A model generated the notes under the pieces. It did no database searches. It saw only the letters and a list, made by a program, of their open reading frames with translations, and was not told the DNA's origin. A stretch of 64,000 bases of DNA, taken from positions 1-64,000 of the forward strand of contig CATKXO010000004.1 in assembly GCA_949840775.1 (NCBI GenBank). The letters are read 5' to 3'. The DNA is from an uncultured bacterium (GTDB lineage Bacteria > Bacillota > Clostridia > Oscillospirales > Oscillospiraceae). Positions within the stretch are counted from its first letter, which is position 1; every line of letters starts with the position of its first letter. The position numbers were made by a program, and so were the translations under genes. Positions 1,746 through 52,460 of the stretch are shown here, piece after piece.

Positions 1746-2543
1746 ATGGAAATTAACACGTTAGGAATGAAACCCCGGGGGAATTGCTGCCCCCATGCAA
1801 TCATCCAGAATTTTATCAACTTTGATTTTACTGTCTCCAATATGGAAGCTGCCAAGAAAATGTTTCTGCCCGCCCCTCTGGAGCCCAGAGCGGACGAGGA
1901 CGGGGATGTCATTCTGACCTGCGGTTTTGTGGATTCCGCGTTCCCTCCCATGCGGGAGGTAGATGGGGAAATTCCGGATCCTAATACCACAGAATTTTCC
2001 GAGTGTGCGCTGGGCATGTCCTGTACGGTGAACGGCAGGCCCAACATTATGAACACCTGGATTCTGCTGGATCACTACGCCGGTGCCCTGCGCCGGGGAT
2101 TCAACCGCAGCGTCATCGATAATTTTTCACGTACCCGCAACCATCCCATGCTGGAGGGGGAGGAACACATCAGGATTGGCAGCCGGATGTTTGCAACCTG
2201 CACCAATGACGGCTCTCTGTACGCCAGAGCCTCGCTGACCGTGAGGGATATCCATGACGCTGATTGGCTGGGTGAGCACTTTTTTGACTGGGGCCAGCTG
2301 CGCTACCTGCCAGATATGGCTCACGGCGACGATGTGAAGCCGCTGATTCAGCAGGCATCTCTATATCACTTCCCAGCCAAATTTGAAGTAAGCAAGGTCT
2401 ACGCAGGCGACGGCAAGCTGGAGTTTGGCGACACACTCTACGGACTGTTCCAGGATCTGGGCGAAATCAAGGTCAAACGGGCGTTCTTTGTCACCTTTGC
2501 CTATACCTATGGCAGCGAAGAACTCTTGTGCGACGCAGAGTGA
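1746..2543 (+). CDS. Acetoacetate decarboxylase-fold protein, type A copy 1
   Basis: 265 aa, the usual size for the acetoacetate decarboxylase (ADC) superfamily, with the family motif LPAPLEP at residues 41-47. It shares with the copy at 3351 the signatures REV-x-GE-x-PDP (70-79), A-G-x-LRRG, and a C-terminal LEFG-x3-YG-x3-DLGEI-x4-FF block. True ADCs decarboxylate acetoacetate through a Schiff-base lysine in an AYPKKLGYP-like segment; the corresponding segment here seems to read IDNFSRTRNHPML and has no lysine, so simple decarboxylase chemistry is doubtful. Start chosen at ATG after AGGTGGTGCAAA. First of four tandem relatives (A-B-A-B). Fold assignment is good; reaction unknown. Confidence 0.7.
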   Translation: MEINTLGMKPRGNCCPHAIIQNFINFDFTVSNMEAAKKMFLPAPLEPRADEDGDVILTCGFVDSAFPPMREVDGEIPDPNTTEFSECALGMSCTVNGRPNIMNTWILLDHYAGALRRGFNRSVIDNFSRTRNHPMLEGEEHIRIGSRMFATCTNDGSLYARASLTVRDIHDADWLGEHFFDWGQLRYLPDMAHGDDVKPLIQQASLYHFPAKFEVSKVYAGDGKLEFGDTLYGLFQDLGEIKVKRAFFVTFAYTYGSEELLCDAE

Positions 2544-2555
2544 GGAGGAAAGACG

Positions 2556-3314
2556 GTGCAGAGCTTCAAGTATGTCCCCTATGAGCCTATCGTGGGCAAC
2601 ATCCGCAAAGTAGGCGAGACAGTCTTCCTTGCGGAACTCAGAATCAATCCGGCGGAATTCGCTTCCCGCGTTCCGGAGGGCTTTCAGGTGGTATCCGACA
2701 AGGCCTATGTGGCAATGACGGAAGCCTCCTTGCGGGATGAGAAGAGTAAAGACTACCCCTTCATCAATCCCATTTATTCTCAGTACTACTCAGCCGGTAT
2801 TCTGGTAGAGGTGGAGGCCCGGGGCCACCGGGGCTGGACCTATGCGGTACGCTACTTTGACCGGGATTGGGCGGTGATGGAAAGCCGCATCAAGGGTTTT
2901 GACGCCTTTTATGCCAACATCCGGACCACCCGTTTCCCCACAGAGATGATGGACTTCTACTATATTCAGGAGGGCAGCCGCATGAAGGCGGTGGCCATTG
3001 ATGAAGGCACCAGGCCGATCAGCCTGGGCTTTGACGCGGACAAGCCCGCAGGGGAGCTGAATTTTGATTTCCTGTTTGCAAACCGGATCGGCCTGCGCAA
3101 GGTGGTGCAGCTGGTGGAGGAGCGCAAGGGCCAGGTGGTGTGCGACGATGTTACCCGTGAAGTAATTACCGATATCCGCTACCGGGATATCTGGCAGGGG
3201 CGGGACATCAAGCTGGTATTCGATGCCAACGGGGTGGGCTCTTTCTTCTACGAGGTCAAAAATGTTTACTGGTTTATGATGGGCTACAACGCGAAAGGGA
3301 TCGAGGTCCTCTGA
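2556..3314 (+). CDS. Acetoacetate decarboxylase-fold protein, type B copy 1
   Basis: 252 aa, second ADC-like protein, 12 bp after type A copy 1; GTG start preceded by GAGGAGG. More similar to the fourth gene than to its direct neighbours: both carry DRDWAV (residues 102-107 here) followed about 20 residues later by RFP (126-128). In the ADC family this is the region of the catalytic lysine pair, but the segment reads RFPTEMMDFYY, with Thr-Glu where Lys-Lys is expected. The repeated pairing of one A and one B gene suggests heteromeric A/B enzymes or two successive steps. Function unknown. Confidence 0.65.
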   Translation: MQSFKYVPYEPIVGNIRKVGETVFLAELRINPAEFASRVPEGFQVVSDKAYVAMTEASLRDEKSKDYPFINPIYSQYYSAGILVEVEARGHRGWTYAVRYFDRDWAVMESRIKGFDAFYANIRTTRFPTEMMDFYYIQEGSRMKAVAIDEGTRPISLGFDADKPAGELNFDFLFANRIGLRKVVQLVEERKGQVVCDDVTREVITDIRYRDIWQGRDIKLVFDANGVGSFFYEVKNVYWFMMGYNAKGIEVL

Positions 3315-3350
3315 GGTGTTAAAATAATAAAGAAACGGAGTGAATGCTGA

Positions 3351-4154
3351 ATGCCGGAACTGAATACAAAAGTAAATCCCGCGCCTGGTGAAAAATACGT
3401 TATGACACAGAGCCTCATCATGGTCCCCTTTCGTGCTGACCCCAAAAAACTTCAGGCCAGGATGCTGCCAAAGCCTCTGGAGCCAGTGGGCGACGGTGGG
3501 ATCGGCTGGGTATACATGGTGGACACTGCTATGCCCGGCCTCCGGGAAGTGGAGAGTGGCGAACCTCCCGACCCTGATATGACCGAATTTCATGAGCTGG
3601 CGATTGGTATGCCCGCCATTTACAACGGTTTTGAGTTTGGCTATATGTCTCAGGTCTGCCTGGACCGCCAAACCGCCGGCCTGCGCCGCGGGATTCTGCG
3701 CAATATCACCTATACTCAGATGACTGATGTACAGCCCCTGCTGACCGGGCGCAGTGAGCTGAAGGCCGGCACCAAACTGTACGGCATCTCCCACCGACCT
3801 CACGGAGAGATGGTGTGCAAGTTATCCATTGAATTGACTGAGCCCTACGACTTTGACGCTCTGCCTGTTGGATGCAGACGGTTTGCTCATGCCCGCTACC
3901 TGAAGGACCCGGCCAACCACAACGAGCCCTTGATTAAAGATGTTCCCCTGTTTCAGTTTACCAACGGATTGGACGGCGTGGACTGCTGGCGCGGCAAAAC
4001 CACCCTGGAATTTGGCGGCGATTACTACGGAAAATGGCTGGACCTGGGGGAAATTGAACCTCTGGATGGCTTCTTCTACAACTTTGGTTACTGCTACGGC
4101 AGCGATTCGCAGGTAACGCCCGTTGACGAAAAGGGGGATTGGAAATGGTTCTGA
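3351..4154 (+). CDS. Acetoacetate decarboxylase-fold protein, type A copy 2
   Basis: 267 aa. Aligns by eye along its whole length with type A copy 1: MLPKPLEP (38-45), REVESGEPPDP (65-75), T-E-F-x-E-L-A-I-G-M, A-G-LRRG, PLI..PLFQF and the C-terminal LEFG/YG/DLGEI/FF/YGS block. The lysine segment of true ADC is replaced (ITYTQMTDVQPLL). Its last codons overlap the start of type B copy 2 by 10 bp, so the two are translationally coupled, again an A-B pair. Possible roles are a non-decarboxylating hydratase, aldolase or isomerase of the ADC superfamily; the sequence does not decide. Confidence 0.7.
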   Translation: MPELNTKVNPAPGEKYVMTQSLIMVPFRADPKKLQARMLPKPLEPVGDGGIGWVYMVDTAMPGLREVESGEPPDPDMTEFHELAIGMPAIYNGFEFGYMSQVCLDRQTAGLRRGILRNITYTQMTDVQPLLTGRSELKAGTKLYGISHRPHGEMVCKLSIELTEPYDFDALPVGCRRFAHARYLKDPANHNEPLIKDVPLFQFTNGLDGVDCWRGKTTLEFGGDYYGKWLDLGEIEPLDGFFYNFGYCYGSDSQVTPVDEKGDWKWF

Positions 4155-4909
4155 ACGAAGAGAAGGGGATTGCCCGCCGGCATGTCGCGGAGAACATCAT
4201 TTCTCTGCGCCTGAAGCTCGATCCCAAGGTGATTGCCCAATATCTGCCCGCCCCCTTTGAGATGAATCGTGAAGGCGAGCTCACGATCATGCTTGCGGAC
4301 TATTACGGTCACGACGAGGATATGGTGGAGCAGGCCGAGGCAGCGGCAAATTTCGTCTACCCCTGTTACACCACTATGCAGGAGGGGCTGATCAGCATCC
4401 CGTGTAAGTTTGAGGGCAAGCCCGGCAACTACCTGGCAAAAATCTGGCAGGACCGGGACTGGGCTGTTCAGCGCGGCCCTATGCTGGGCTACAATACGGA
4501 ACTGGCCGAGGTCCACATCAACCGTTTCCCTGGCCGTCTGCGCAAACTGTATGCACCCCACGTGGGCAGCAAGATTAAGGGCGTGGTCCGTCAGAATGGG
4601 GACAATCTGATTTCCGGCTGGATTGAGTTGACCGAAAAGGTCCTGTACCCCGAAGATGAGTACATGGTCTGCTACGGCCGCCGCCAAATAGAGGATATGC
4701 TGGACCCGGACGGCGAAAAGCTGATTGACGATATTTTGATTGAGTATCACGATTCCGAAATCAAGGGCGATGTATTCAAGGGACATGGCCATCTTAGGTT
4801 GGGCGGCTTTATGAAGGATTGGGAGTACGAGATTATTGATGCTTATTACTTTGAAATTGGGTTTTCGACTTCCGGCTGGAGAGTATTGAAGGACCTTAAA
4901 CAGAAGTAA
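4145..4909 (+). CDS. Acetoacetate decarboxylase-fold protein, type B copy 2
   Basis: 254 aa from the ATG preceded by AAGGGGGAT (a TTG two codons earlier is less likely). Contains YLPAPFEM (33-40), DRDWAV (103-108) and RFPGRLRKLYAP (127-138). The last aligns with the ADC catalytic segment but gives Gly-Arg where the Schiff-base Lys-Lys should be. Overlaps the preceding type A gene. Last gene before a strong terminator-like hairpin, so TRAP permease plus the four ADC-like genes look like one transcription unit. Confidence 0.68.
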   Translation: MVLNEEKGIARRHVAENIISLRLKLDPKVIAQYLPAPFEMNREGELTIMLADYYGHDEDMVEQAEAAANFVYPCYTTMQEGLISIPCKFEGKPGNYLAKIWQDRDWAVQRGPMLGYNTELAEVHINRFPGRLRKLYAPHVGSKIKGVVRQNGDNLISGWIELTEKVLYPEDEYMVCYGRRQIEDMLDPDGEKLIDDILIEYHDSEIKGDVFKGHGHLRLGGFMKDWEYEIIDAYYFEIGFSTSGWRVLKDLKQK

Positions 4910-5083: not shown

Positions 5084-6361
5084 ATGAAAAAAAATCCTTC
5101 CAACCTGTGGTATTGGCTTATCGTTCTCTCTGTGTTTTTGGTCATGATGTTTAACTGCGGCGTGGGCTACTACAGCGTTTCGCTGTTTGTAACTCCAATT
5201 ACCAGGACGTTCGGAATCAGCAGCGGCGATTTTGCGCTGGTGTATATCTTCTATGGTATTGGCAGCGCCATTGCTGCGGTGAACCTGCACAAGCTGCTGA
5301 AGCGCATTTCTCTGAAGCGGCTGATTTTGTTCGGCGGCCTGATCAGCGCCGCGGGATATGTTCTCTTTTCCCTTGCCCGCAGCCTGGCCGGCCTATTTGC
5401 TGGCGGCATCCTCATCGGCGCTTCCACAGTGCTCGCGGGAACGGCAACAGTGCAGCTGATAATTGCCCGCTGGTTTTCCGACCGGCGCAGTCAGATTACC
5501 GGTCTGGTTGCCTCCGCTAGCGGAATTGGCACAGCAATCGGAAGCCCCTTTGTAGGCCAAATGATTCGCAACCTGGGCTGGCGGACGGCGTGCTTGGTGA
5601 TCGGAGGGCTGGTTGCGGTATTTATCTGTGTCCAGGCCACATTTCTGCTTAAGAATGATCCCAGCTGTGCAGGACTACCGCCCTATACACTGGGGCGGCA
5701 GTCGGGAGGAGCCGGCGGGGACCTCCCGGCCCTGGAGGAGGGCCTCTCCCTGCAAGAGGGAATGAAAAGCTCCTGTTTCTGGCTGTTTTCCGGGGGAATG
5801 GTAGTTGTATCGGTGGTTTATCAAATCATCTCGCTATACCAGTCCAGCATTTTAATTGAGCGGGGCTTTCCGGAGGAGCTGGCCGCCACCTGCCTGTCTG
5901 TGTTTGCGGTTGTGGATATGTGCAGCAAGGCCGGCGCGGGCATGATTGCGGACCGGTTTGGGTTCCGGCTGGTAACACTGTATTGCGCTGCGGGTACTGC
6001 TGCGGCATTCGTTGTGGTGAGGGCAGTGAGCGGCACGCCGGGGGCGCTTCTGTTCTCAGCGCTGTTGGGGCTCTGGCCCACCGTTTGCGTATTGTACGGC
6101 GTGACAGCGTCCATCGCCCTGTTTGGGAAAAAATATCTCTCGGAATATATCAGCTTCACGCAGACACTGATGTGCTGCTGCTCATTGGTAGGTATGCCGG
6201 TAGTCAGGCAGCTGTACAACGCTGTTGGAACCTTTAATGGGATTATGAATTTGTCCATCGGCTTTTTGATGGCCTTCTGCGTTATGATGATCTTGATGCT
6301 GAGAAAGAAAAATCTGTTTACGTTGGCTCCAGACGGCCGGACGGACATGGAGGAGGGATAA
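5084..6361 (+). CDS. Major facilitator superfamily transporter
   Basis: 425 aa with about 12 hydrophobic segments and an MFS-type layout: N-terminal half, a soluble loop near residues 200-225 (GGAGGDLPALEEGLSLQEG), C-terminal half. WFSDRRSQITGLVASASGIG resembles the motif-A/loop region of oxalate/formate-antiporter-like and monocarboxylate-type MFS carriers. Probably an organic anion carrier of the inner membrane. It is followed after 2 bp by the isochorismatase-type gene, so it belongs to the second transcription unit of this locus, which now has two unrelated carriers. Confidence 0.85.
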   Translation: MKKNPSNLWYWLIVLSVFLVMMFNCGVGYYSVSLFVTPITRTFGISSGDFALVYIFYGIGSAIAAVNLHKLLKRISLKRLILFGGLISAAGYVLFSLARSLAGLFAGGILIGASTVLAGTATVQLIIARWFSDRRSQITGLVASASGIGTAIGSPFVGQMIRNLGWRTACLVIGGLVAVFICVQATFLLKNDPSCAGLPPYTLGRQSGGAGGDLPALEEGLSLQEGMKSSCFWLFSGGMVVVSVVYQIISLYQSSILIERGFPEELAATCLSVFAVVDMCSKAGAGMIADRFGFRLVTLYCAAGTAAAFVVVRAVSGTPGALLFSALLGLWPTVCVLYGVTASIALFGKKYLSEYISFTQTLMCCCSLVGMPVVRQLYNAVGTFNGIMNLSIGFLMAFCVMMILMLRKKNLFTLAPDGRTDMEEG

Positions 6362-6363
6362 AA

Positions 6364-7086
6364 ATGAGCGGACAGGTATCCCCAATATGGGAAAACATCC
6401 TTACTGAAGAGGATCGTATTGTCATCAGGAAAGGGAAATATGGACAGCCCAGAGGCTACGGAAAGCGTCCAGTTCTGATCTGCATTGATTTGCAGCCCAA
6501 TTATATTGGTGCAGACATGCCCATCGTGGAACAGCTGGAAGAGTGGCCGTCCGGCGGAGGTGCAAGGGCGTGGGAAGGAGTACGGAATATTCTCTCCCTG
6601 CGGGACGCTGCGCGGGAGGCAAACGTCCCGGTTTTTTATACACGCAATGTTCAAAATGGGACCGCTTTGTTTGACAATTTTGCGGGGAAGCGGGTCCGGG
6701 ATAACCGTAAATTTATGGATGGGCATCCCTGTTCGGCTCTCCTGCCCTGTGTGCAACCGCGTCCGGAAGAGCCAATAATCTCTAAAAGCTATGCCAGCGC
6801 CTTTTATGGGACGCCGCTGCAAAGCTATTTGAACACCTTGGGCATTGACACCGTTATCATTGTGGGTGGTTCCACCAGCGGCTGCTGTCGTGCCACGGCG
6901 GTGGACGCCGCGAGCCGGAGCTACCGCTTGATCTATGTGGAGGACTGCCTGTTTGATCGGATTGAGGTCTCCCACAAGGCGTCATTGCTGGATATTTGGA
7001 TGAAATATGGGGACGTAGTAAACAGTGACAGCGTCAAAAAATATTTTCTCGGACTCAGCACCGGAGATGCGGGAGTAGCCCGGTGA
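6364..7086 (+). CDS. Isochorismatase-family cysteine amidohydrolase
   Basis: 240 aa with the catalytic triad of the cysteine-hydrolase superfamily: Asp42 in LICIDLQPNY, Lys141 in IISKSYASAFYGTPL, Cys174 in GGSTSGCCRATAVDA. The TSGC-x-RA-x-A-VDA block resembles N-carbamoylsarcosine amidase and maleamate amidohydrolase more than isochorismatase, so it probably cleaves an amide or carbamoyl group (family knowledge). It starts 2 bp after the MFS gene, with its Shine-Dalgarno inside the MFS 3' end, and overlaps the next gene by GTGA. The exact substrate cannot be read from the sequence. Confidence 0.82.
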   Translation: MSGQVSPIWENILTEEDRIVIRKGKYGQPRGYGKRPVLICIDLQPNYIGADMPIVEQLEEWPSGGGARAWEGVRNILSLRDAAREANVPVFYTRNVQNGTALFDNFAGKRVRDNRKFMDGHPCSALLPCVQPRPEEPIISKSYASAFYGTPLQSYLNTLGIDTVIIVGGSTSGCCRATAVDAASRSYRLIYVEDCLFDRIEVSHKASLLDIWMKYGDVVNSDSVKKYFLGLSTGDAGVAR

Positions 7087-7274
7087 AACAGGAGGATAAT
7101 GAACGCATTTTGTGCCTGTGCCTCAACATCACCACCGGGGATATCAGACGGGCGGTGGGTGCGGGTGCAAAGACTTTTTCGGAAGTCCAGCGGATTACCC
7201 GCTGTGCCAAAAGCTGCGGAATGTGTGCCGACGTGGTCAAGGAGGAACTGGTACGCCTACTGGCGGAACAGTAA
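7083..7274 (+). CDS. BFD-like [2Fe-2S] protein
   Basis: 63 aa with the bacterioferritin-associated-ferredoxin pattern C-x-C (Cys11, Cys13) ... C-x2-C (Cys45, Cys48), and GDIRRAVGAGAKTFSEV between, typical of BFD-like domains. Such domains bind [2Fe-2S] and often deliver electrons to flavoenzymes, free-standing or fused. The GTG start overlaps the stop of the amidohydrolase. It lies 31 bp before an old-yellow-enzyme that lacks its own reductase domain, so it is a good candidate for that enzyme's electron donor (inference). Confidence 0.8.
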   Translation: MKQEDNERILCLCLNITTGDIRRAVGAGAKTFSEVQRITRCAKSCGMCADVVKEELVRLLAEQ

Positions 7275-7305
7275 AAGGAAATTGTACTGATTGGAGGCGG
7301 TGAAT

Positions 7306-8367
7306 ATGTACGAAGCCATCCTGTCCCCAGTGGACTATGGCGGAATTATCCTCAAAAACCGGATTATTTTTGCCCCGACTACCATGGGGCTTTCCAGAGA
7401 TGCCTTTTTAACCAGGCTGCGGCAGATCGCCCGGGGCGGCTGTGCCATGATTATAATCGGCGATGTGCCAGCCAGCCCTTGGTCGGTGGAGCCATCGTTA
7501 TATAAGGAGGAGGGCTTCGCTTATTACGCACAGCTGGCGGATGCGGTTCACCAGGAGGACTGTAGCATCTGTGCACAGCTGTATCTGTCAGACTCGGTGG
7601 CAGACGACGGGACGGGGGGAATCCGCCCGATTCGCAAAGAAGAGATAGGGGACTATGTATCCCGGCTTCCTGCCTCTCAATTGCGCCGCTATGCGGATAT
7701 GTTCGGCGAGGCGGCCCGGCTGGCCCGGAGAGCGGGCTTTGACATGGTGCAGGTTCTGGGTGACCGAATGCTGGGGAGTCTTTGCTCCACCATGTTTAAC
7801 AGGCGGACGGATCAGTACGGGGGTAATGCGGAAAACCGGGGACGTTTCGTCCGGGAGTGTGTCAGTGCGGTCCGAGGCGAACTGCCTCAGATACCGGTGG
7901 ACTATAAGCTGACTGTCCGGCAGGAAAAACCTCACTATGGCAACGCGGGAGTTTTGAAAGAAGAAATACCTTATTTTGTACCAATTCTGGAGGATGCTGG
8001 GGTGACAAGTTTTCATGTGACACTTGCGAACCACTGCGCTTTGAGCGATGTGATCCCTTCTGCCAAGCACCCCTATTTTGGTAAAGAGGGCTGTTTTTTA
8101 CAGTATAGTGATGCGGTTCGCAGCTGTACCAATCTGCCCGTCTGCGGGGTTGGGGGATTAACAGACCCGGATTTTCTGGAGGAACAGCTTGACTCCGGCA
8201 GAATCAGCTGCGCCGCTATGAGCCGGCAGTTAATCGCAGACCCGGAATGGGTGAACAAGATCCGCCTGGGCAGACCGGATACCATCCGGCGCTGTGTTCG
8301 CTGCAACGGCAGGTGCATTCAGGGAATGCTGAACCGGTCGGGTGTACATTGTATGTATGAGACCTAG
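7306..8367 (+). CDS. Old-yellow-enzyme barrel with 4Fe-4S motif, lacking the C-terminal FAD/NAD domain
   Basis: 353 aa from the ATG after TTGGAGGCGG. N-terminal SPVDYGGIILKNRIIFAPTT and NRRTDQYGGNAENRGRF are diagnostic of the OYE/2,4-dienoyl-CoA reductase family; ADPEWVNKIRLGR is the FMN-phosphate end. The 4Fe-4S ligands are present (Cys330, 333, 337, 349: C-x2-C-x3-C-x11-C), but the protein stops four residues after the last cysteine. Relatives of this type run to about 640 residues with a pyridine-nucleotide-linked flavin domain. The usual HGAHGY proton-donor segment reads LGDRMLG, so the active site differs. Possibly natural, possibly cut by the rearrangement directly downstream. Confidence 0.75.
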   Translation: MYEAILSPVDYGGIILKNRIIFAPTTMGLSRDAFLTRLRQIARGGCAMIIIGDVPASPWSVEPSLYKEEGFAYYAQLADAVHQEDCSICAQLYLSDSVADDGTGGIRPIRKEEIGDYVSRLPASQLRRYADMFGEAARLARRAGFDMVQVLGDRMLGSLCSTMFNRRTDQYGGNAENRGRFVRECVSAVRGELPQIPVDYKLTVRQEKPHYGNAGVLKEEIPYFVPILEDAGVTSFHVTLANHCALSDVIPSAKHPYFGKEGCFLQYSDAVRSCTNLPVCGVGGLTDPDFLEEQLDSGRISCAAMSRQLIADPEWVNKIRLGRPDTIRRCVRCNGRCIQGMLNRSGVHCMYET

Positions 8368-8420
8368 TTTGACATATGGACGGCGGATATATGGCATAAT
8401 AAAAGAGGCGACAAACGGCA

Positions 8421-8510
8421 GTGAAAATTAAAGCGGCAGTTGTCCACCAGGAGGGCGTTCCATTTTTATATCTGGCAGCTCCGGGCTTATACTTTTGGGC
8501 AGGAAGTTGA
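8421..8510 (+). pseudogene. 5' remnant of a zinc-type alcohol dehydrogenase
   Basis: GTG followed by codons for MKIKAAVVHQEGVPF, the classic N-terminus of zinc-dependent (aryl-)alcohol dehydrogenases. The frame then turns into unrelated sequence (LYLAAPGLYFWAGS) and stops at 29 residues, so only the first 15 or so codons remain. A GAGGCG ribosome site and a weak promoter (TTGACA 8369-8374, CATAAT 8395-8400) are still in front. The break lies near base 8465. Together with the truncated deacetylase it marks a deletion or insertion scar. Confidence 0.5.
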
Positions 8511-8640
8511 CCTATAGTCAAGTACTAAACTGTGAGAAACAGAGGAGCGACAGTCAGAGAAATCGGTCAAATGATTGCAGTTTGATTACCGGAAAAGGGA
8601 ACATAGAAAATCTTGAAGCGTTTGTGCCGCAAGGGGTTTC

Positions 8641-9201
8641 CTATGTTGCACTCGTTTCCACATCCCACTGGATGGGTTCCATACCGATGGACCGCACAGC
8701 GTTGATGGAGTTGTCATCGTAGTCGCCATAGGGTAGGCGGACCAGAGTGGGGCGGACCCCGGTGACCTGCTCGATTTTGTCATTGCAGGCGTTCAGGTCG
8801 GCGGCCACAGCGTCGGCGGAGAGCTGAGGGTAGTGGGCGTGGGTGTTGGAGTGGTTCATGACCTCGTGGCCCGCGTCGTGGAGGGCCTTTACTGACTCAG
8901 GGTACTTGTCCACCCACTCGCCCACTACGAAGAAGGTGGCGGGGACCTTATACTGTCCCAGAATGTCGATAAGCTGTTGGGTATCCTCGTTGCCCCAAGC
9001 GGCGTCAAAGCTGATGGACACCAGCTTCTGGTCCCGCTGGACGCAGTAGATGGGCAGCTGACGGGTAGTGGCTGCCGCCCCCACTGCGGCGGGGTAGTTG
9101 ACCACATAAAACATCAGCGCCGCCAGACAGAGGCAGGCGGCGGCGGTCCACCACTTGCGTTCGATGAAAAAGATTTTAATCTGTTCCCGTTTTTTTGCCA
9201 T
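8641..9201 (-). pseudogene. Polysaccharide deacetylase, 3'-truncated
   Basis: 186 aa. N-terminal cytoplasmic Lys/Arg stretch and one membrane segment (about residues 17-42), then a NodB-type carbohydrate esterase domain: SFDAAWGNEDT, HSNTHAHYPQLS (metal-binding His pair) and RLPYGDYDD. Related PdaB-like sporulation deacetylases have about 60 more residues (WDVDT-x-DW... and a LMHD block); here the frame ends at WDVETSAT and stops, next to foreign low-GC sequence. Probably non-functional. The break coincides with the right edge of the catabolic gene set. Confidence 0.7.
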
Positions 9202-9241
9202 GACGCAGCACTCCTCTTTGATTCAGATAGCAAAGCATATG

Positions 9242-9281
9242 AAAAACACGCCTGGAACATGAACGTTCCAGGCGTGTTTTT
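9242..9281. terminator. Bidirectional terminator
   Basis: Perfect 17-bp stem AAAAACACGCCTGGAAC / GTTCCAGGCGTGTTTTT around ATGAAC. A-run on one side and T-run on the other, so it can stop transcription in both directions. It lies between the deacetylase remnant and the sugar locus, just downstream of the last Gfo/Idh gene. Confidence 0.85.
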
Positions 9282-9293
9282 CCTTGTTTAAGC

Positions 9294-10286
9294 CTATCTG
9301 TCACCGGGGAAGAACAGCCCGGCGCCGAGGCGGGCCCGCTCTACCGCCTCTGTTACAGGCAGGGTGATGTCGGCCAGCAGGCCGTAGGCCGTATCATAGT
9401 CGCCTGACCGAATCAGGCCGGCGATGGCCCGCACCTCATAGAACCAGCGGCTGGGGTCGGGCTGGAGGTTGAAGGTCTGATCCCCCTCTTCCGTTACGAC
9501 CCGGACCTCTGCCAGGCCGTTGCTGCCGTCCCGAACCCAGATAAAGCCCTTTTCCCCCTCAATTTGGAAGAAGCTGATTCCCCGGGCGTCCTTGGAGGCG
9601 GCCAGGGAGGCGGTGAAGCCGGGGTAGTCCAGCTCCACAACACCGGAGGTGTCGATGCCGTTGGGGGCCAGGTTGGGCCGGTAGCGGGCCCCTGCCGGGG
9701 GGCCGAACAGGGCGGTGGTGAGATACACGTTGTAGTAGTTAATGTCCATCAGGCAGCCGCCGGCAAAGCCGGGGTTGAAGACGTTGGGAGTCTCCCCGGC
9801 CAGCAGCTTGTCATATCGGGCGCTGTACTGGGTGTAGTTTCCCAGCACCAGCTTCACCCGGCCCAGCTTGGGCAGGTGCTCCTTCAGCACCGGGAAGTTG
9901 GGCAGCAGGGCGGTGGGGACGGCTTCGATCAGAAACAGCCGCTTTTCCCTAGCCAGCGCCAGCAGCTCCCGGACCTGATCCGCCCTGGTGCAGAAGGGCT
10001 TTTCACAGATGACATGCTTGCCTGCGGACAGGGCCTGCCTGGTCTGCTCATAGTGGAGGCTGTTGGGAGAGGCGATGTAGACCACATCCACGTTGGGGTC
10101 AGCTAAAAAAGCCTCCAGGCCGGTGTGGACGGTCTTTCCGCCGTACTCCTCCGCCAGGGCCCGGCCTGTCTCCTCCTTGCGGGAATATACCGCCTCCAGG
10201 CGGATGCCCTCAGTGCGCAGTACGCCGTCTAAAATGGAGTGGACGATGGGACCGGAGCCGATGGTGCCCAGGCGTATTTCCTTCAT
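9294..10286 (-). CDS. Gfo/Idh/MocA family oxidoreductase (1)
   Basis: 330 aa NAD(P)-dependent dehydrogenase of sugars or cyclitols. N-terminal Rossmann motif RLGTIGSGPIVHSI, then VYIASPNSLHYEQT and CEKPF (family EKP motif, substrate and cofactor contact), followed by the C-terminal beta-sheet substrate domain with GGCLMDINYYNV. Last gene of a seven-gene operon on this strand; its start overlaps the stop of the next Idh gene by 4 bp. Substrate probably the imported sugar or its keto form (inference from context). Confidence 0.85.
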   Translation of the reverse strand: MKEIRLGTIGSGPIVHSILDGVLRTEGIRLEAVYSRKEETGRALAEEYGGKTVHTGLEAFLADPNVDVVYIASPNSLHYEQTRQALSAGKHVICEKPFCTRADQVRELLALAREKRLFLIEAVPTALLPNFPVLKEHLPKLGRVKLVLGNYTQYSARYDKLLAGETPNVFNPGFAGGCLMDINYYNVYLTTALFGPPAGARYRPNLAPNGIDTSGVVELDYPGFTASLAASKDARGISFFQIEGEKGFIWVRDGSNGLAEVRVVTEEGDQTFNLQPDPSRWFYEVRAIAGLIRSGDYDTAYGLLADITLPVTEAVERARLGAGLFFPGDR

Positions 10287-47947: not shown

Positions 47948-49393
47948 ATGCTGCTTTACAATTCTGCCACTCACAAGAAAGAAGAGTTCACCACCCACAC
48001 CCCCGGCCACGTGGAGATGTACACCTGCGGGCCTACGGTGTACCACTTCGCCCACATCGGCAACCTGCGGTCCTACATCATGGAGGACGTGCTGGAGAAG
48101 TTCCTGCGGTACGACGGCTACGACGTGAACCGAGTGATGAACATCACCGACGTGGGCCACCTGTCCAGCGACGCCGACACCGGCGAGGACAAGATGCTCA
48201 AGGGGGCCAAGCGGGAGCACAAGACCGTAATGGAGATCGCCCAGTACTACACCGACGCCTTCTTCGACGACTGCCGCAAGCTGAACATCAAGACCCCCGA
48301 CGTGGTCCAGCCCGCCACCGGCCTCATCGACGAGTTCATCAAGATCGTGTCCGGCCTTATCGACAAGGGCTACGCCTACGTGGCCGGGGGCAATGTGTAT
48401 TTCGACACCTCCAAGCTGGAGCGGTACTATGTCTTCAACGACCACGACGAGGAGGATTTGGCGGTGGGCGTCCGGGAGGGCGTGGAGGAGGACCGGAACA
48501 AGCGGAATAAGAACGACTTTGTCCTCTGGTTCACCAAGAGCAAGTTTGAGGACCAGGCCCTGAAGTGGGACTCCCCCTGGGGGGTGGGCTACCCCGGCTG
48601 GCATATCGAGTGCTCCGGTATCTCCCTGAAATACAACGGCGAGTACCTGGACCTCCACTGCGGCGGCATCGACAACGCCTTCCCCCACCACACCAACGAG
48701 ATCGCCCAGAGTGAGAGCTACATCGGCCACCCCTGGTGCAAGCAGTGGTTCCACGTCCACCACCTGAATACCAACTCCGGGAAAATGTCCAAGTCCAAGG
48801 GGGAGTTCCTCACCGTCTCCCTGCTGGAGGAGAAGGGTTACGACCCCCTGGTCTACCGCTTCTTCTGCCTCCAAAGCCACTACCGCAAGGGGCTGGTCTT
48901 TTCCTGGGAGAACCTGGACAACGCCACGGTGGCGTTCAACAAGTTGATTGCCAAAATCGCCGCCTTGGATACGGCCGTTGAGAGTATGGATCTGGCGGAA
49001 TATGAAAGGCTGGATGAGAAATTCCGGAAAGCTCTGGGAAACGATCTGAGTACCTCTCTGGGAATTACAGTCCTCTACGATGTACTGAAGTCCCCGGCCA
49101 ATGATACGACCAAGCTGGCCCTGCTGGAGCATTTCGACCAGGTGCTGTCCCTGTCCCTGCTGGACAAGGCGGCGGTCGTCCGGGAGGAGCAGAAGAAGCA
49201 GAAGACCGCCTCCCAGGGGGGGTACACCATCACCGGCGAGGGGGACCCCGCTGTGGACGCCCTGGTTCTCCAGCGGTACGAGGCCAAGAAAGCCAAGAAC
49301 TTCGCCGAGGCCGACCGCATTCGGGATGAACTGAGGGCGCAGGGGATTGAGGTCACCGATGTGCCCGGCGGCGCGAGCTGGAAGAAGCTGTGA
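47948..49393 (+). CDS. cysS: Cysteine-tRNA ligase
   Basis: 481 aa from the ATG after TGGAGGAAAG. Class I synthetase: zinc and HIGH-type region TCGPTVYHFAHIGNLRSY, zinc ligands WHIECSG and HHTNEIAQSE, KMSKSKGEFLT, DALR-like helical C-terminus (KNFAEADRIRDELRAQGIEV). Complete. Pathway partner of cysE under one T-box. Confidence 0.96.
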   Translation: MLLYNSATHKKEEFTTHTPGHVEMYTCGPTVYHFAHIGNLRSYIMEDVLEKFLRYDGYDVNRVMNITDVGHLSSDADTGEDKMLKGAKREHKTVMEIAQYYTDAFFDDCRKLNIKTPDVVQPATGLIDEFIKIVSGLIDKGYAYVAGGNVYFDTSKLERYYVFNDHDEEDLAVGVREGVEEDRNKRNKNDFVLWFTKSKFEDQALKWDSPWGVGYPGWHIECSGISLKYNGEYLDLHCGGIDNAFPHHTNEIAQSESYIGHPWCKQWFHVHHLNTNSGKMSKSKGEFLTVSLLEEKGYDPLVYRFFCLQSHYRKGLVFSWENLDNATVAFNKLIAKIAALDTAVESMDLAEYERLDEKFRKALGNDLSTSLGITVLYDVLKSPANDTTKLALLEHFDQVLSLSLLDKAAVVREEQKKQKTASQGGYTITGEGDPAVDALVLQRYEAKKAKNFAEADRIRDELRAQGIEVTDVPGGASWKKL

Positions 49394-49397
49394 AAGA

Positions 49398-49440
49398 AAG
49401 CGAGGAGCCATCTCATCAGGTGACTCCTTGCTTATTTTAA
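49398..49440 (+). terminator. Terminator after cysS
   Basis: Stem AAGCGAGGAG / CTCCTTGCTT (one G-T pair) followed by ATTTTAAG. Confidence 0.7.
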
Positions 49441-49443
49441 GAA

Positions 49444-49548
49444 TCAATAATCTTGATTAGTATCGCTTATCGCTAATGCGTCATCAGAATCTGTTGTTGT
49501 GAACTTATATTGATTATAACCATCCTCCAGTACGATTTCATGATTGCT
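49444..49548 (-). pseudogene. 3' remnant of an unknown gene at the island edge
   Basis: Open frame that encodes a plausible protein C-terminus, NHEIVLEDGYNQYKFTTTDS followed by DDALAISDTNQDY and TGA. There is no start; upstream it runs into high-GC sequence (49560-49640) unlike it in composition. Family not recognised. Taken as the tail of a broken gene. Confidence 0.35.
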
Positions 49549-49642
49549 TTTCCGCAAGGGGCGGGGCGCAAGCCTGTTACCCTTGTGCCCCGCTCCCGTT
49601 CCGGCTCCTGCGTGCACCGTCCTCTTACGCTTTCCGTTCCAT

Positions 49643-49673
49643 GAAAAACGCCCCTATTGAAGTAGGAGCGTTA
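49643..49673 (-). terminator. Terminator of the low-GC hypothetical operon
   Basis: Minus strand AACGCTCCTA / TAGGGGCGTT, then TTTTT. Confidence 0.75.
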
Positions 49674-49687
49674 GGTGTATTATATAT

Positions 49688-50215
49688 TCAAGTTTTTCTG
49701 AAAATGTCCAATGTGTCCGAAGTGCCTATGGCTATGTAATTTCCGCATTTGCTAAATCCAAATGCCTTTATTTCATAATCCTCAAAGATTGTGGTACATT
49801 TCTCCGGATTTAAGGTATAAAGAGTATAATTGGGCATAAAGATGATTTTCACCATCGGCCAAAAGGGGGCTACTGGTACCAATGTGTTTCCGTCTTTGGA
49901 AAATCGCCGCAAACCGCCGCCCCCATCCCCCGCGATTGGCACAATTTCATCCCCCAATTCCTCAGCGAGGGCAATCAAATCATCTTCATCATAATTTTCA
50001 GTACAATATGTTTTACTGCCTGTTTTGCAATCTATAATGCTTTGCCTTTGGCTCGATATGACAACTAATTTCTCAGTATGTACGTTTGAAAAGCCTAAAT
50101 ACATTAAACCACCGACTGCATAAGTAATTTTCTCCCACCCGTCAGGGACACCCGTTGGAATGCACCGGATGATGCCCTGCATCTTTTTTCTATGCTCAAT
50201 CTCATTTGCGTCCAT
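49688..50215 (-). CDS. Hypothetical protein of the low-GC island
   Basis: 175 aa, soluble, no signal peptide. Contains WEKITYAVGGLMYLGFS, GDGGGGLRRFSKDGNTLVP and a C-terminal FGFSKCGNYIAIGTSDTLDIF, a beta-rich pattern that ends like a WD/YVTN blade. Family not recognised. GC content is clearly below that of the core genes. Last gene of a four-gene unit. Confidence 0.6.
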   Translation of the reverse strand: MDANEIEHRKKMQGIIRCIPTGVPDGWEKITYAVGGLMYLGFSNVHTEKLVVISSQRQSIIDCKTGSKTYCTENYDEDDLIALAEELGDEIVPIAGDGGGGLRRFSKDGNTLVPVAPFWPMVKIIFMPNYTLYTLNPEKCTTIFEDYEIKAFGFSKCGNYIAIGTSDTLDIFRKT

Positions 50216-50250
50216 AGCATACCTCTATTACACGTTGTTTTTGATACTGA

Positions 50251-50901
50251 TTACTTGGAATGTAGGTTTATCAAATTGTTATCGACTATATATTTCAAAT
50301 TGCTTCTGTTAATCATCCAAACGCTGTTCCTTGCCCCGTTTTGATATGCCAATACCTGCTGCCGCATATCATCGGAAAGGCTGTCGTATATTTCCTGGGC
50401 CTTTTCCCGTATGGCGGGTGACATACCAAGTTTATCTGCGATAAAATCCAAATACACACGATATTCATCAAAATGTTCGCGGAACAGTATTTCCACTCCT
50501 CCAAGGTAATCCTGTTCAAATTGTGCGCACAAGCTGCCTGCCGTCTGTTGTATCTGGCGGTTTAACTCATCAAAGGCAGAAAGAAGTTTTTCCTCAGTAG
50601 AAATGTCATACCAATGTTCGCTGTCAGAATTACAAGACTCCGGGCAATATGACATCATGGCAATTACGTTGTTTGCAGGCAGTTTCCCATAACTTTTGCA
50701 CCACAGCTTAAATTCGGCGCTCACTTCAACCCTCTCATATGAAACATTCCATTTTGATGTGAAAAAATTTATCTGAAAAACCAAATCCTTAACTGATTTT
50801 TTAAGGCATTGCTGGCTTTTCAAGTATTTCCAACCTGTTGCTTCAGAAAGTTTTGTAAATAATTTTTGAGTGGCTTCTTCCACAGAAAATATGCGTTCCA
50901 T
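50251..50901 (-). CDS. Hypothetical protein of the low-GC island
   Basis: 216 aa from the ATG with GGGGAGAG upstream. Soluble, mostly helical in the second half (DDMRQQVLAYQNGARNSVW); the first half (WKYLKSQQCLKKSVKDLVFQ, KWNVSYERVEVSAEFKLWCK) has the look of a DUF4304-like domain. Function unknown; possible immunity or accessory protein of a mobile island (speculative). Confidence 0.6.
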   Translation of the reverse strand: MERIFSVEEATQKLFTKLSEATGWKYLKSQQCLKKSVKDLVFQINFFTSKWNVSYERVEVSAEFKLWCKSYGKLPANNVIAMMSYCPESCNSDSEHWYDISTEEKLLSAFDELNRQIQQTAGSLCAQFEQDYLGGVEILFREHFDEYRVYLDFIADKLGMSPAIREKAQEIYDSLSDDMRQQVLAYQNGARNSVWMINRSNLKYIVDNNLINLHSK

Positions 50902-50947
50902 TTTTATCTCTCCCCACAATTTTTGACTTACAAGTTTAGCTGGCCAA

Positions 50948-51190
50948 TCAGAACGAATAAAATCCCTCCCTCAAAATGATTGCTAAGAAGTAAAGTGCTA
51001 CAAAAGCGCAGAAGCCGCCCAAAAGCAGAGGGATAATTGCCAAAATTTTGAACCGCGCCTTTTTCCAGATTTCCCACGCCGCTTTTAGCATAACAACCGC
51101 TATCCCCGCCGCGCCCAATATCACAACAAAAATGGAAAAATAAGCTAATCCCACGGTTCTCACCTGCTTTCTTTGTTGAAATGATTTCAT
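50948..51190 (-). CDS. Small membrane protein
   Basis: 80 aa with two hydrophobic helices (about 14-36 and 46-73) joined by a basic loop KKARFK. Its start codon abuts the stop of the membrane protein upstream. Function unknown. Confidence 0.55.
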   Translation of the reverse strand: MKSFQQRKQVRTVGLAYFSIFVVILGAAGIAVVMLKAAWEIWKKARFKILAIIPLLLGGFCAFVALYFLAIILREGFYSF

Positions 51191-51766
51191 TTATCTGTGT
51201 TCATCCAATGTTACCGAAATTGTTTCGTTCCCTCCGGCTCCGTTTGCAACAGATAGCGTCACGGTATCTCCTTGCCAAACGAGCGAGTATTTCCCGGCGC
51301 AGACCGGCCTATATCCATCGTCGGTGATGATGCGTCCTTTTGGATCAAGATCAATCAGAAATGGATTGACCCGCTCATATAGAGTTACCTGTCCAGAGAT
51401 TAAGCTGACTTTTTCCATGATAACGACGGTATGTATTCCGTCTGGTGAAGTGAAGCTGTGGTATTCCTCAAATCCATCAAAAAAGATGCAAAGGAAATTC
51501 CCACACAACAATAAAAAGGCCGTACCAGCGGCAATCACCGCAAGTATTATTTTATTTTTCGGTGCTTTTTTGGTTTCTCGATAATGCAGAAACGCAAGTG
51601 TTATTCCACAAACCGCCGCAATGCAGTTTAGTATGCCCTGTATACGAAATGCCGTCCCCGTAGTGCCAATCAGCAGATTATAGTCCATCATCCAAATAAT
51701 GATTACGATGCAAGGGAAAGCAAGCCACAAGGCAAGGTATAAGTACAAGAATTTTCGCAATTTCAT
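51191..51766 (-). CDS. Membrane protein with extracytoplasmic domain, unknown
   Basis: 191 aa: three to four helices (about 7-27, 40-60, 73-95), then about 95 residues outside (FTSPDGIHTVVIMEKVSLIS, CAGKYSLVWQGDTVTLSVAN). The SPDG-x-H-T-V-V-I pattern is shared with small lipoprotein-like domains of gut Clostridia. First gene of the unit. Function unknown. Confidence 0.6.
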   Translation of the reverse strand: MKLRKFLYLYLALWLAFPCIVIIIWMMDYNLLIGTTGTAFRIQGILNCIAAVCGITLAFLHYRETKKAPKNKIILAVIAAGTAFLLLCGNFLCIFFDGFEEYHSFTSPDGIHTVVIMEKVSLISGQVTLYERVNPFLIDLDPKGRIITDDGYRPVCAGKYSLVWQGDTVTLSVANGAGGNETISVTLDEHR

Positions 51767-51923
51767 TTTTGCTTATCTCCTGAACGGCCTTTGTATGCTT
51801 CTATGAGGTATTATACCGTAGGGGGCAAAAATTTTCCACTATTATCGTGTTATGGAAACAGGGGATTGGGTCATCCTTCCGTATGACGAAGAAAACTGAT
51901 TTCTTTTAAGGAGACGCAAAGCA

Positions 51924-52460
51924 ATGGTCTACTTTATCGCAGATACGCATTTCGGGCATGAAAACGTGATCCGCTTCTGTGGCCGGCCCTTCTCCTGTGC
52001 GGCGGAGATGGACGAGGCACTGATTGAAAACTGGAATGGCCGGGTCCACCGCCAGGATACCGTCTATATTGTTGGGGATATGTTCCTGCACTCAGTCAAC
52101 GTGGAACAGATTTTGAAGCGCCTCAAGGGAAGAAAGCGGCTGATTGCCGGCAATCACGACGGTTCCTGGATGGCGGCGCTGGACACCGCAAAATACTTTG
52201 AGAGCGTGGACCTGTTCCTCGAAATAAACGACGGAAAGCGGGCGGTCACGCTGTGCCACTACCCGCTGCTGAGCTGGAAGCATTCTGCGCGCAGCTACAT
52301 GATCCATGGGCACATCCACAACGACAGGCGGGCCGATTTCTGGCCGCTGATCGCTGCCCGGGAGCGGGTGCTGAACGCAGGTGTGGACATCAACGGGTTT
52401 ATGCCGGTCACATTTGAGGAGCTGATGGAGAACAATACGAGGTTCAAAGGGACAATATAG
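51924..52460 (+). CDS. Metallophosphoesterase
   Basis: 178 aa calcineurin-like phosphoesterase: ADTHFGH (D-x-H), GDMF, GNHD, H in LCHYPLL and GHIHN. Resembles the short phosphoesterases often borne by phages and mobile elements. ATG after AAGGAG. Substrate unknown. Confidence 0.88.
   Translation: MVYFIADTHFGHENVIRFCGRPFSCAAEMDEALIENWNGRVHRQDTVYIVGDMFLHSVNVEQILKRLKGRKRLIAGNHDGSWMAALDTAKYFESVDLFLEINDGKRAVTLCHYPLLSWKHSARSYMIHGHIHNDRRADFWPLIAARERVLNAGVDINGFMPVTFEELMENNTRFKGTI

Follow-up and report, generated by a model that had tools for sequence, protein, structure and literature searches.

What can the acetoacetate decarboxylase (ADC, EC 4.1.1.4) fold do once the lysine that makes this enzyme the textbook case of amine catalysis is gone? 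The question is raised by four consecutive genes, here called A1, B2, A3 and B4, that lie at the start of contig CATKXO010000004.1 in the 2.6-Mb genome of an uncultured Oscillospiraceae bacterium (assembly GCA_949840775.1); the first 64,000 nucleotides (nt) of this contig are the window analysed here. An earlier note on the window had proposed that the four genes encode tandem ADC-fold proteins in A-B-A-B order, that none carries the Schiff-base lysine, and that they form two A/B heteromers with new chemistry. Natural, strongly conserved pairs that lack the lysine directly test the fold's other capabilities, and the conserved operon around them supplies concrete candidate substrates that make the finding testable.

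All four genes are intact, and their products were found to have the ADC fold. Three score above the Pfam ADC (PF06314) cut-off of 29.8 bits (45.9, 39.6 and 64.9 bits), and the product of the first gene, A1, falls below it (16.5 bits, E 0.006). A PF06314 search of the window's genome (E <= 0.001) recovered these three, A1 being beyond the model's reach, and no other ADC-family gene. The alternating order is borne out by pairwise similarity: A1 resembles A3 (33% identity, E 9e-31) and B2 resembles B4 (23%, E 8e-16), whereas A and B proteins are merely 15-22% identical, with A3-B4 the best cross pair (E 4e-7), A1-B4 at E 0.007, and no similarity between A1 and B2 or between B2 and A3 (E 0.35 and 0.83). 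A tree of 12 such proteins from three genomes (the two others are introduced below) and 11 comparators recovers A1+A3 with support of 99/98 and B2+B4 with 99/97, and omission of B2 or A1 leaves the other sister pair intact. By the approximately unbiased (AU) test, three other clades were rejected: A3+B4 (p-AU 0.0019), B4 with a lysine-bearing protein of genome G122 (p-AU 0.0018), and A with that same protein (p-AU 0.016). A1+A3 and B2+B4 are sister pairs, probably produced by duplication of an A-B unit, and the simplest history would be a single A/B split followed by that duplication, with the lysine lost once or twice.

By profile comparison, the A and B proteins are nearest to the aldolase-dehydratase branch of MppR, Swit_4259 and Sbi00515 (PDB 4jm3, 5upb and 4zbo, which the family profile matches at E 7e-13, 6e-16 and 2e-21, respectively), whereas structures named ADC are reached at just E 0.23 and 0.26 (3bgt and 3c8w). 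With ADC itself they share the fold and a distant sequence similarity. They differ from the MppR branch in lacking the lysine, in forming duplicated A-B pairs, and in belonging to an operon that, judged by its gene families, is neither an antibiotic nor an aromatic-degradation cluster. Saccharolobus solfataricus likewise has a pair of ADC-like genes induced on phenol, Sso1221 and Sso1222, which carry consecutive locus tags within a catabolic cluster but belong to an aerobic phenol pathway (PMC7820114).

The lysine site was located by aligning the proteins with comparators and solved relatives; its K115/K116 numbering was taken from the earlier note, not from the Clostridium acetobutylicum ADC sequence itself. 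In this alignment, the Schiff-base lysine has been lost in all four proteins and is likewise missing from their orthologues in the two other genomes. The local sequence is F-N-R-S-V in A1, F-D-A-F-Y in B2, I-L-R-N-I in A3 and Y-N-T-E-L in B4 (the K115-K116 equivalents are given in Table 1), and a gapless alternative register drawn by eye for the A proteins (D125-N126 in A1, Y121-T122 in A3) places no lysine there either. The segments that had been assigned to the site by eye were out of register, and the lysine-free conclusion survives the correction. By comparison, all 15 distinct comparators have lysine in the K115 column, and 13 of the 15 PF06314 matches found phylum-wide outside the window's genome keep it (partly judged by eye). 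The two exceptions, of which one has a lysine at the next position (also partly by eye), are DUF2071 (PF09844) proteins to which the ADC model gives weak scores (L033 and L035, in genomes G593 and G417), so lysine-free ADC-like proteins are possibly not without precedent; the cassette proteins themselves have no DUF2071 match at E 0.1.

Since the lysine is gone, the textbook mechanism of amine catalysis through it is impossible. The glutamate equivalent to Glu76 is present in all 15 comparators and is kept as E86, E82 and E80 in A1, A3 and B4; in B2 a serine stands in its place. An arginine (R182 of A3) is invariant across all 12 aligned proteins of the three genomes, and its equivalent occurs in six of six comparators that were found through their likeness to these proteins and in one of nine others, most of which have lysine there. 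The glutamate, kept in three of the four proteins, and the arginine are held in common with the nearest relatives and suggest a related carboxylate or enol chemistry. The proposal of new chemistry thus stands insofar as catalysis by that lysine is impossible, and beyond this the retained residues suggest kinship with what the relatives do.

The four-gene order was found at two further loci, in Flintibacter muris DSM 110149 and in an Oscillospiraceae metagenome-assembled genome (MAG), by a contig scan with two short peptide patterns that may overlook divergent members. Searches with a 12-row profile (245 genomes of the order) and with A1 (200 genomes of the family) were each positive in one genome, the window's own, and the genomes missed by A1 include three of the same genus. 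Searching the 200 family genomes with A3 gave two extra weak matches, a lysine-type ADC relative (G122) and a spurious one (G086), and a B profile run against 398 genomes of the phylum gave another lysine-type relative (G553) and a spurious match (G485). All four genes thus occur together in three of three genomes. The outcome that the earlier note named as refuting its proposal, homologues that mostly stand alone and act as ordinary ADCs, was not encountered for the A/B clade, as no A or B gene lay outside a four-gene set in the searches made. The ratio of nonsynonymous to synonymous substitution rates (dN/dS) lies at 0.016-0.058 for 11 of the 12 pairs compared (dS 1.2-2.2; the twelfth has saturated dS), so all four proteins, B2 included, are maintained under strong purifying selection.

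Two lysine-bearing loci were seen alongside. The G122 gene, from the same family (L019:2-829; PF06314 163 bits), adjoins what appear by eye to be a DctPQM-type tripartite ATP-independent periplasmic (TRAP) transporter and an M20-like hydrolase. In a genome of the same phylum (G474), tandem ADC-like frames (L038, minus strand, reverse-complement frames 7577-8557 and 8485-9564) both have the lysine (FPKK).

In all three genomes the four genes lie together with catabolic genes, in a catabolic-looking gene set of rare Oscillospiraceae that we call the cassette. Base 1 of the window falls inside a TRAP fused-permease gene, whose F. muris copy is 95% identical over 573 amino acids (aa), and this gene is followed on the same strand by the four ADC-like genes, a major facilitator superfamily (MFS) carrier, an isochorismatase-type hydrolase with a TSGCCRA motif (present in F. 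muris and, by eye, in the window), a BFD-type [2Fe-2S] protein and an Old Yellow Enzyme. An upstream half is seen only in F. muris and the MAG and comprises an IclR-type regulator, LeuC-family and LeuD/DmdB-family subunits, a lyase of the phosphoenolpyruvate (PEP)-mutase/isocitrate-lyase family, a hydantoinase/allantoinase-like amidohydrolase, a TAXI TRAP receptor and the TRAP permease. The lyase has KRCGH at position 117 of the F. muris protein, a K-x-C-G-H motif that is presumably catalytic in lyases of this superfamily. Its closest solved relative is the petal death protein (E 7e-60), which we take to be an alkylmalate lyase, and this nearest relative makes an alkylmalate its candidate substrate. 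The cysteines of LeuC and the amidohydrolase motifs (DCHTH, FKYFM and SDH) are likewise intact. Because the downstream flanks differ among the three genomes and a phage-type integrase (L011:15889-16791) lies ~3.7 kb downstream of the MAG cassette, we infer that the cassette may be a mobile or shuffled unit.

This operon context, which lay outside the view of the earlier note, points to cyclic-imide or alkylmaleate catabolism. The LeuC/LeuD family includes maleate- and dimethylmaleate-type hydratases, the isochorismatase family includes amidases, and nicotinate fermentation ends with dimethylmaleate hydratase and dimethylmalate lyase. The cassette resembles that ending in that its hydratase of the LeuC/LeuD family adjoins a lyase of the isocitrate-lyase family and an amidohydrolase; it differs in having ADC-fold pairs and, within the cassette, the part of the genomes searched, no nicotinate-specific genes. 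The gene content fits conversion of a substituted, maleimide-like cyclic imide to pyruvate and an acid by what would be a coherent chain: the amide ring is hydrolysed, then the amide, and the resulting cis-dicarboxylate undergoes hydration and retro-Claisen cleavage. The TRAP and MFS transporters would carry the substituted cyclic compound, an imide or lactam, or products derived from it; the flavoenzyme, fed by the [2Fe-2S] protein, would reduce the ring, the hydantoinase-like hydrolase would open it, and the isochorismatase-type hydrolase would de-amidate the product to a substituted cis-dicarboxylate (an alkylmaleate), which the LeuC/LeuD pair would hydrate and the lyase would cleave to pyruvate and a short acid.

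The step of the A and B proteins would precede hydration, with the unsaturated acid or the ring as its substrate, and would most likely be lysine-independent enol/ene chemistry. With the lysine gone and glutamate and arginine kept, non-covalent enolisation through these two residues, in A perhaps with an arginine at the lysine's place, is the most economical guess, and the outcome could be hydration or dehydration, a double-bond shift, or C-C cleavage by a retro-aldol step. A heteromer is plausible, and in this reading joint assembly of A and B is the likeliest arrangement: the apparent co-duplication of the A-B unit, the co-occurrence of the four genes and the overlap of A3 with B4 by 10 nt, which recurs in all three genomes, fit a functional unit, in which B2, lacking both the glutamate and the lysine, could be a structural or substrate-binding and perhaps non-catalytic partner. 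As a whole, the account in which duplicated, lysine-less A-B pairs perform an enol/ene step in a cassette that breaks a substituted cyclic imide or lactam to pyruvate and a short acid is the best explanation we can offer, and we hold it tentatively.

Several observations weigh against this account. The register of the A proteins at the lysine site is ambiguous, and the structure models are of middling confidence (predicted local distance difference test, pLDDT, 69 and 72). Monophyly of all twelve cassette proteins has a non-decisive support of 91/91 (84/85 and 85/87 with B2 or A1 omitted), a grouping of B with the lysine-bearing G122 protein is compatible with the data (p-AU 0.065), and long branches, flagged by the tree program itself, meet in the tree. 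The upstream half is absent from the window's own assembly, which elsewhere has just weak matches of 62-138 bases, most simply through a contig break, and the examined stretches of the MAG cassette hold no isochorismatase match, contrary to a fixed unit. The MFS carrier, [2Fe-2S] protein and flavoenzyme may form a separate unit, because they diverge faster than the ADC genes (62-80% amino-acid identity to their F. muris counterparts, against 86-97% for the ADC genes and 84% for the isochorismatase) and a gap of 74-174 nt precedes the genes from the MFS carrier onward. Neighbourhoods were examined for five of the 25 listed amidohydrolase matches, two of which had been picked for an annotated isochorismatase. 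The closest relatives among the five, from the actinobacteria Nonomuraea (46%), Rhodococcus (41%) and Streptomyces (40%), have no isochorismatase, LeuC/LeuD or lyase match within 12 kb (E 1e-6). Speaking for the pathway, related genes stand together elsewhere: a Halorubrum set keeps isochorismatase (43% identity), amidohydrolase (32%), LeuC (44%) and LeuD (41%) together, as a Hydrogenophaga set does amidohydrolase (34%), isochorismatase (33%) and lyase (35%); neither has A or B at E 1e-6, and A/B are therefore not required for an imide pathway as such, their proposed step being absent from these sets.

Among the alternatives, the A and B proteins could be independent, sequential lysine-free enzymes (hydratases or isomerases) that form homo-oligomers, their order reflecting gene duplication only. 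Known ADC-fold enzymes are homo-oligomers, the four genes have separate start codons, and the low identity of A to B fits this possibility; however, the A-B unit was apparently duplicated and has stayed together in three of three genomes, and the recurrent overlap of A3 and B4 also speaks for pairing, so that we consider separate enzymes somewhat unlikely. That the cassette instead degrades a pyrimidine or hydantoin-type ureide, with A/B handling the resulting ureido or keto acid, would suit an amidohydrolase that scores with allantoinase and dihydropyrimidinase models and an isochorismatase-type hydrolase that scores with RutB and biuret hydrolase, in both cases below the equivalog cut-offs, but it leaves the LeuC/LeuD-type hydratase and the lyase of the same operon unexplained and is in our view unlikely. 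It is quite doubtful that A and B are catalytically dead binding subunits serving as substrate carriers or regulators, as the wide divergence of the paralogues and the losses of lysine (four of four) and of glutamate (B2) might suggest, when three keep the glutamate, all four keep the arginine, purifying selection is very strong and four copies sit within a catabolic-looking operon.

The flavoenzyme may bear on the substrate of the proposed imide pathway. All three cassette copies exceed the cut-off of 425 for the NCBIfam bilirubin-reductase model NF045592 (F. muris 485 bits, MAG 472; window in Table 1), and automatic annotation would probably label them bilirubin reductase. Of 150 genomes of the family, five, among them the window's, have a match of this type at E <= 1e-90, and F. 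muris and the MAG have one match each at E <= 1e-60, the cassette copy. The flavoenzyme is 55-60% identical to the four other family-genome members, all of which have HGDR, whereas all three cassette copies (the others at L010:11866-12927 and L011:11097-12167) have LGDR; the window's flavoenzyme also lacks a stretch after SDS. The BilR clade as published is bounded by HGDR, and replacement of its D and R by alanine lowers activity (PMC10769871); a second reductase, BilV, has AHAH at this position, according to a preprint (PMC13252198). With LGDR, the flavoenzyme is by this motif-based delimitation a relative of BilR and not BilR. Its neighbour is a [2Fe-2S] protein where BilR has the flavodoxin BilS; a flavodoxin-like open reading frame (ORF; by eye) adjoins the G128 copy. 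It seems highly improbable that the cassette, with this reductase at its front and lysine-free A/B heteromers for ring or bridge chemistry, degrades the pyrrole-derived rings found in bile pigments, either in bilins or in maleimide or lactam fragments of them, to pyruvate and short acids in the gut, although a meaningful BilR link would raise the fate of haem pigments beyond urobilinogen.

Table 1. The cassette in the window: feature, coordinates, strand and supporting evidence.
TRAP transporter fused permease, truncated by contig start	26..1723	+	TIGR02123 441 bits, cut-off 321
A1, ADC-fold protein, Schiff-base lysine absent (R121-S122, or D125-N126, at the site)	1746..2543	+	33% identity to A3; MppR E 5.5e-5; alignment
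B2, ADC-fold protein, A117-F118 at lysine site, Ser79 at usual Glu	2556..3314	+	PF06314 45.9 bits; alignment
A3, ADC-fold protein, R117-N118 (or Y121-T122) at lysine site, Glu82 kept	3351..4154	+	
B4, ADC-fold protein, T118-E119 at lysine site, Glu80 kept	4145..4909	+	start overlaps A3 by 10 nt
MFS carrier, monocarboxylate/oxalate-type relatives	5084..6361	+	Pfam MFS_1 90 bits; SfMCT E 5e-25, under equivalog cut-off
Isochorismatase-type cysteine hydrolase, amidase-like	6364..7086	+	PF00857 E 5e-31
BFD-type [2Fe-2S] protein, 63 aa, GTG start	7083..7274	+	PF04324 41 bits
BilR-related Old Yellow Enzyme, LGDR replacing HGDR; ATG start possible at 7306	7291..8367	+	NF045592 479 bits, cut-off 425; alignment with four HGDR family members

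From the TRAP permease to the flavoenzyme, the genes are spaced by 22, 12, 36, -10, 174, 2, -4 and 31 nt. The B4 frame opens at 4139, and the ATG at 4145 is its likelier start. The first 8.4 kb of the window have a GC content of 54.5%, compared with 61.4% over 8.4-48 kb. Further along, GC drops to 48.6% amid ~61% at positions 48001-52000, where one ORF is cysteinyl-tRNA-synthetase-like by eye and several small ones are unidentified.

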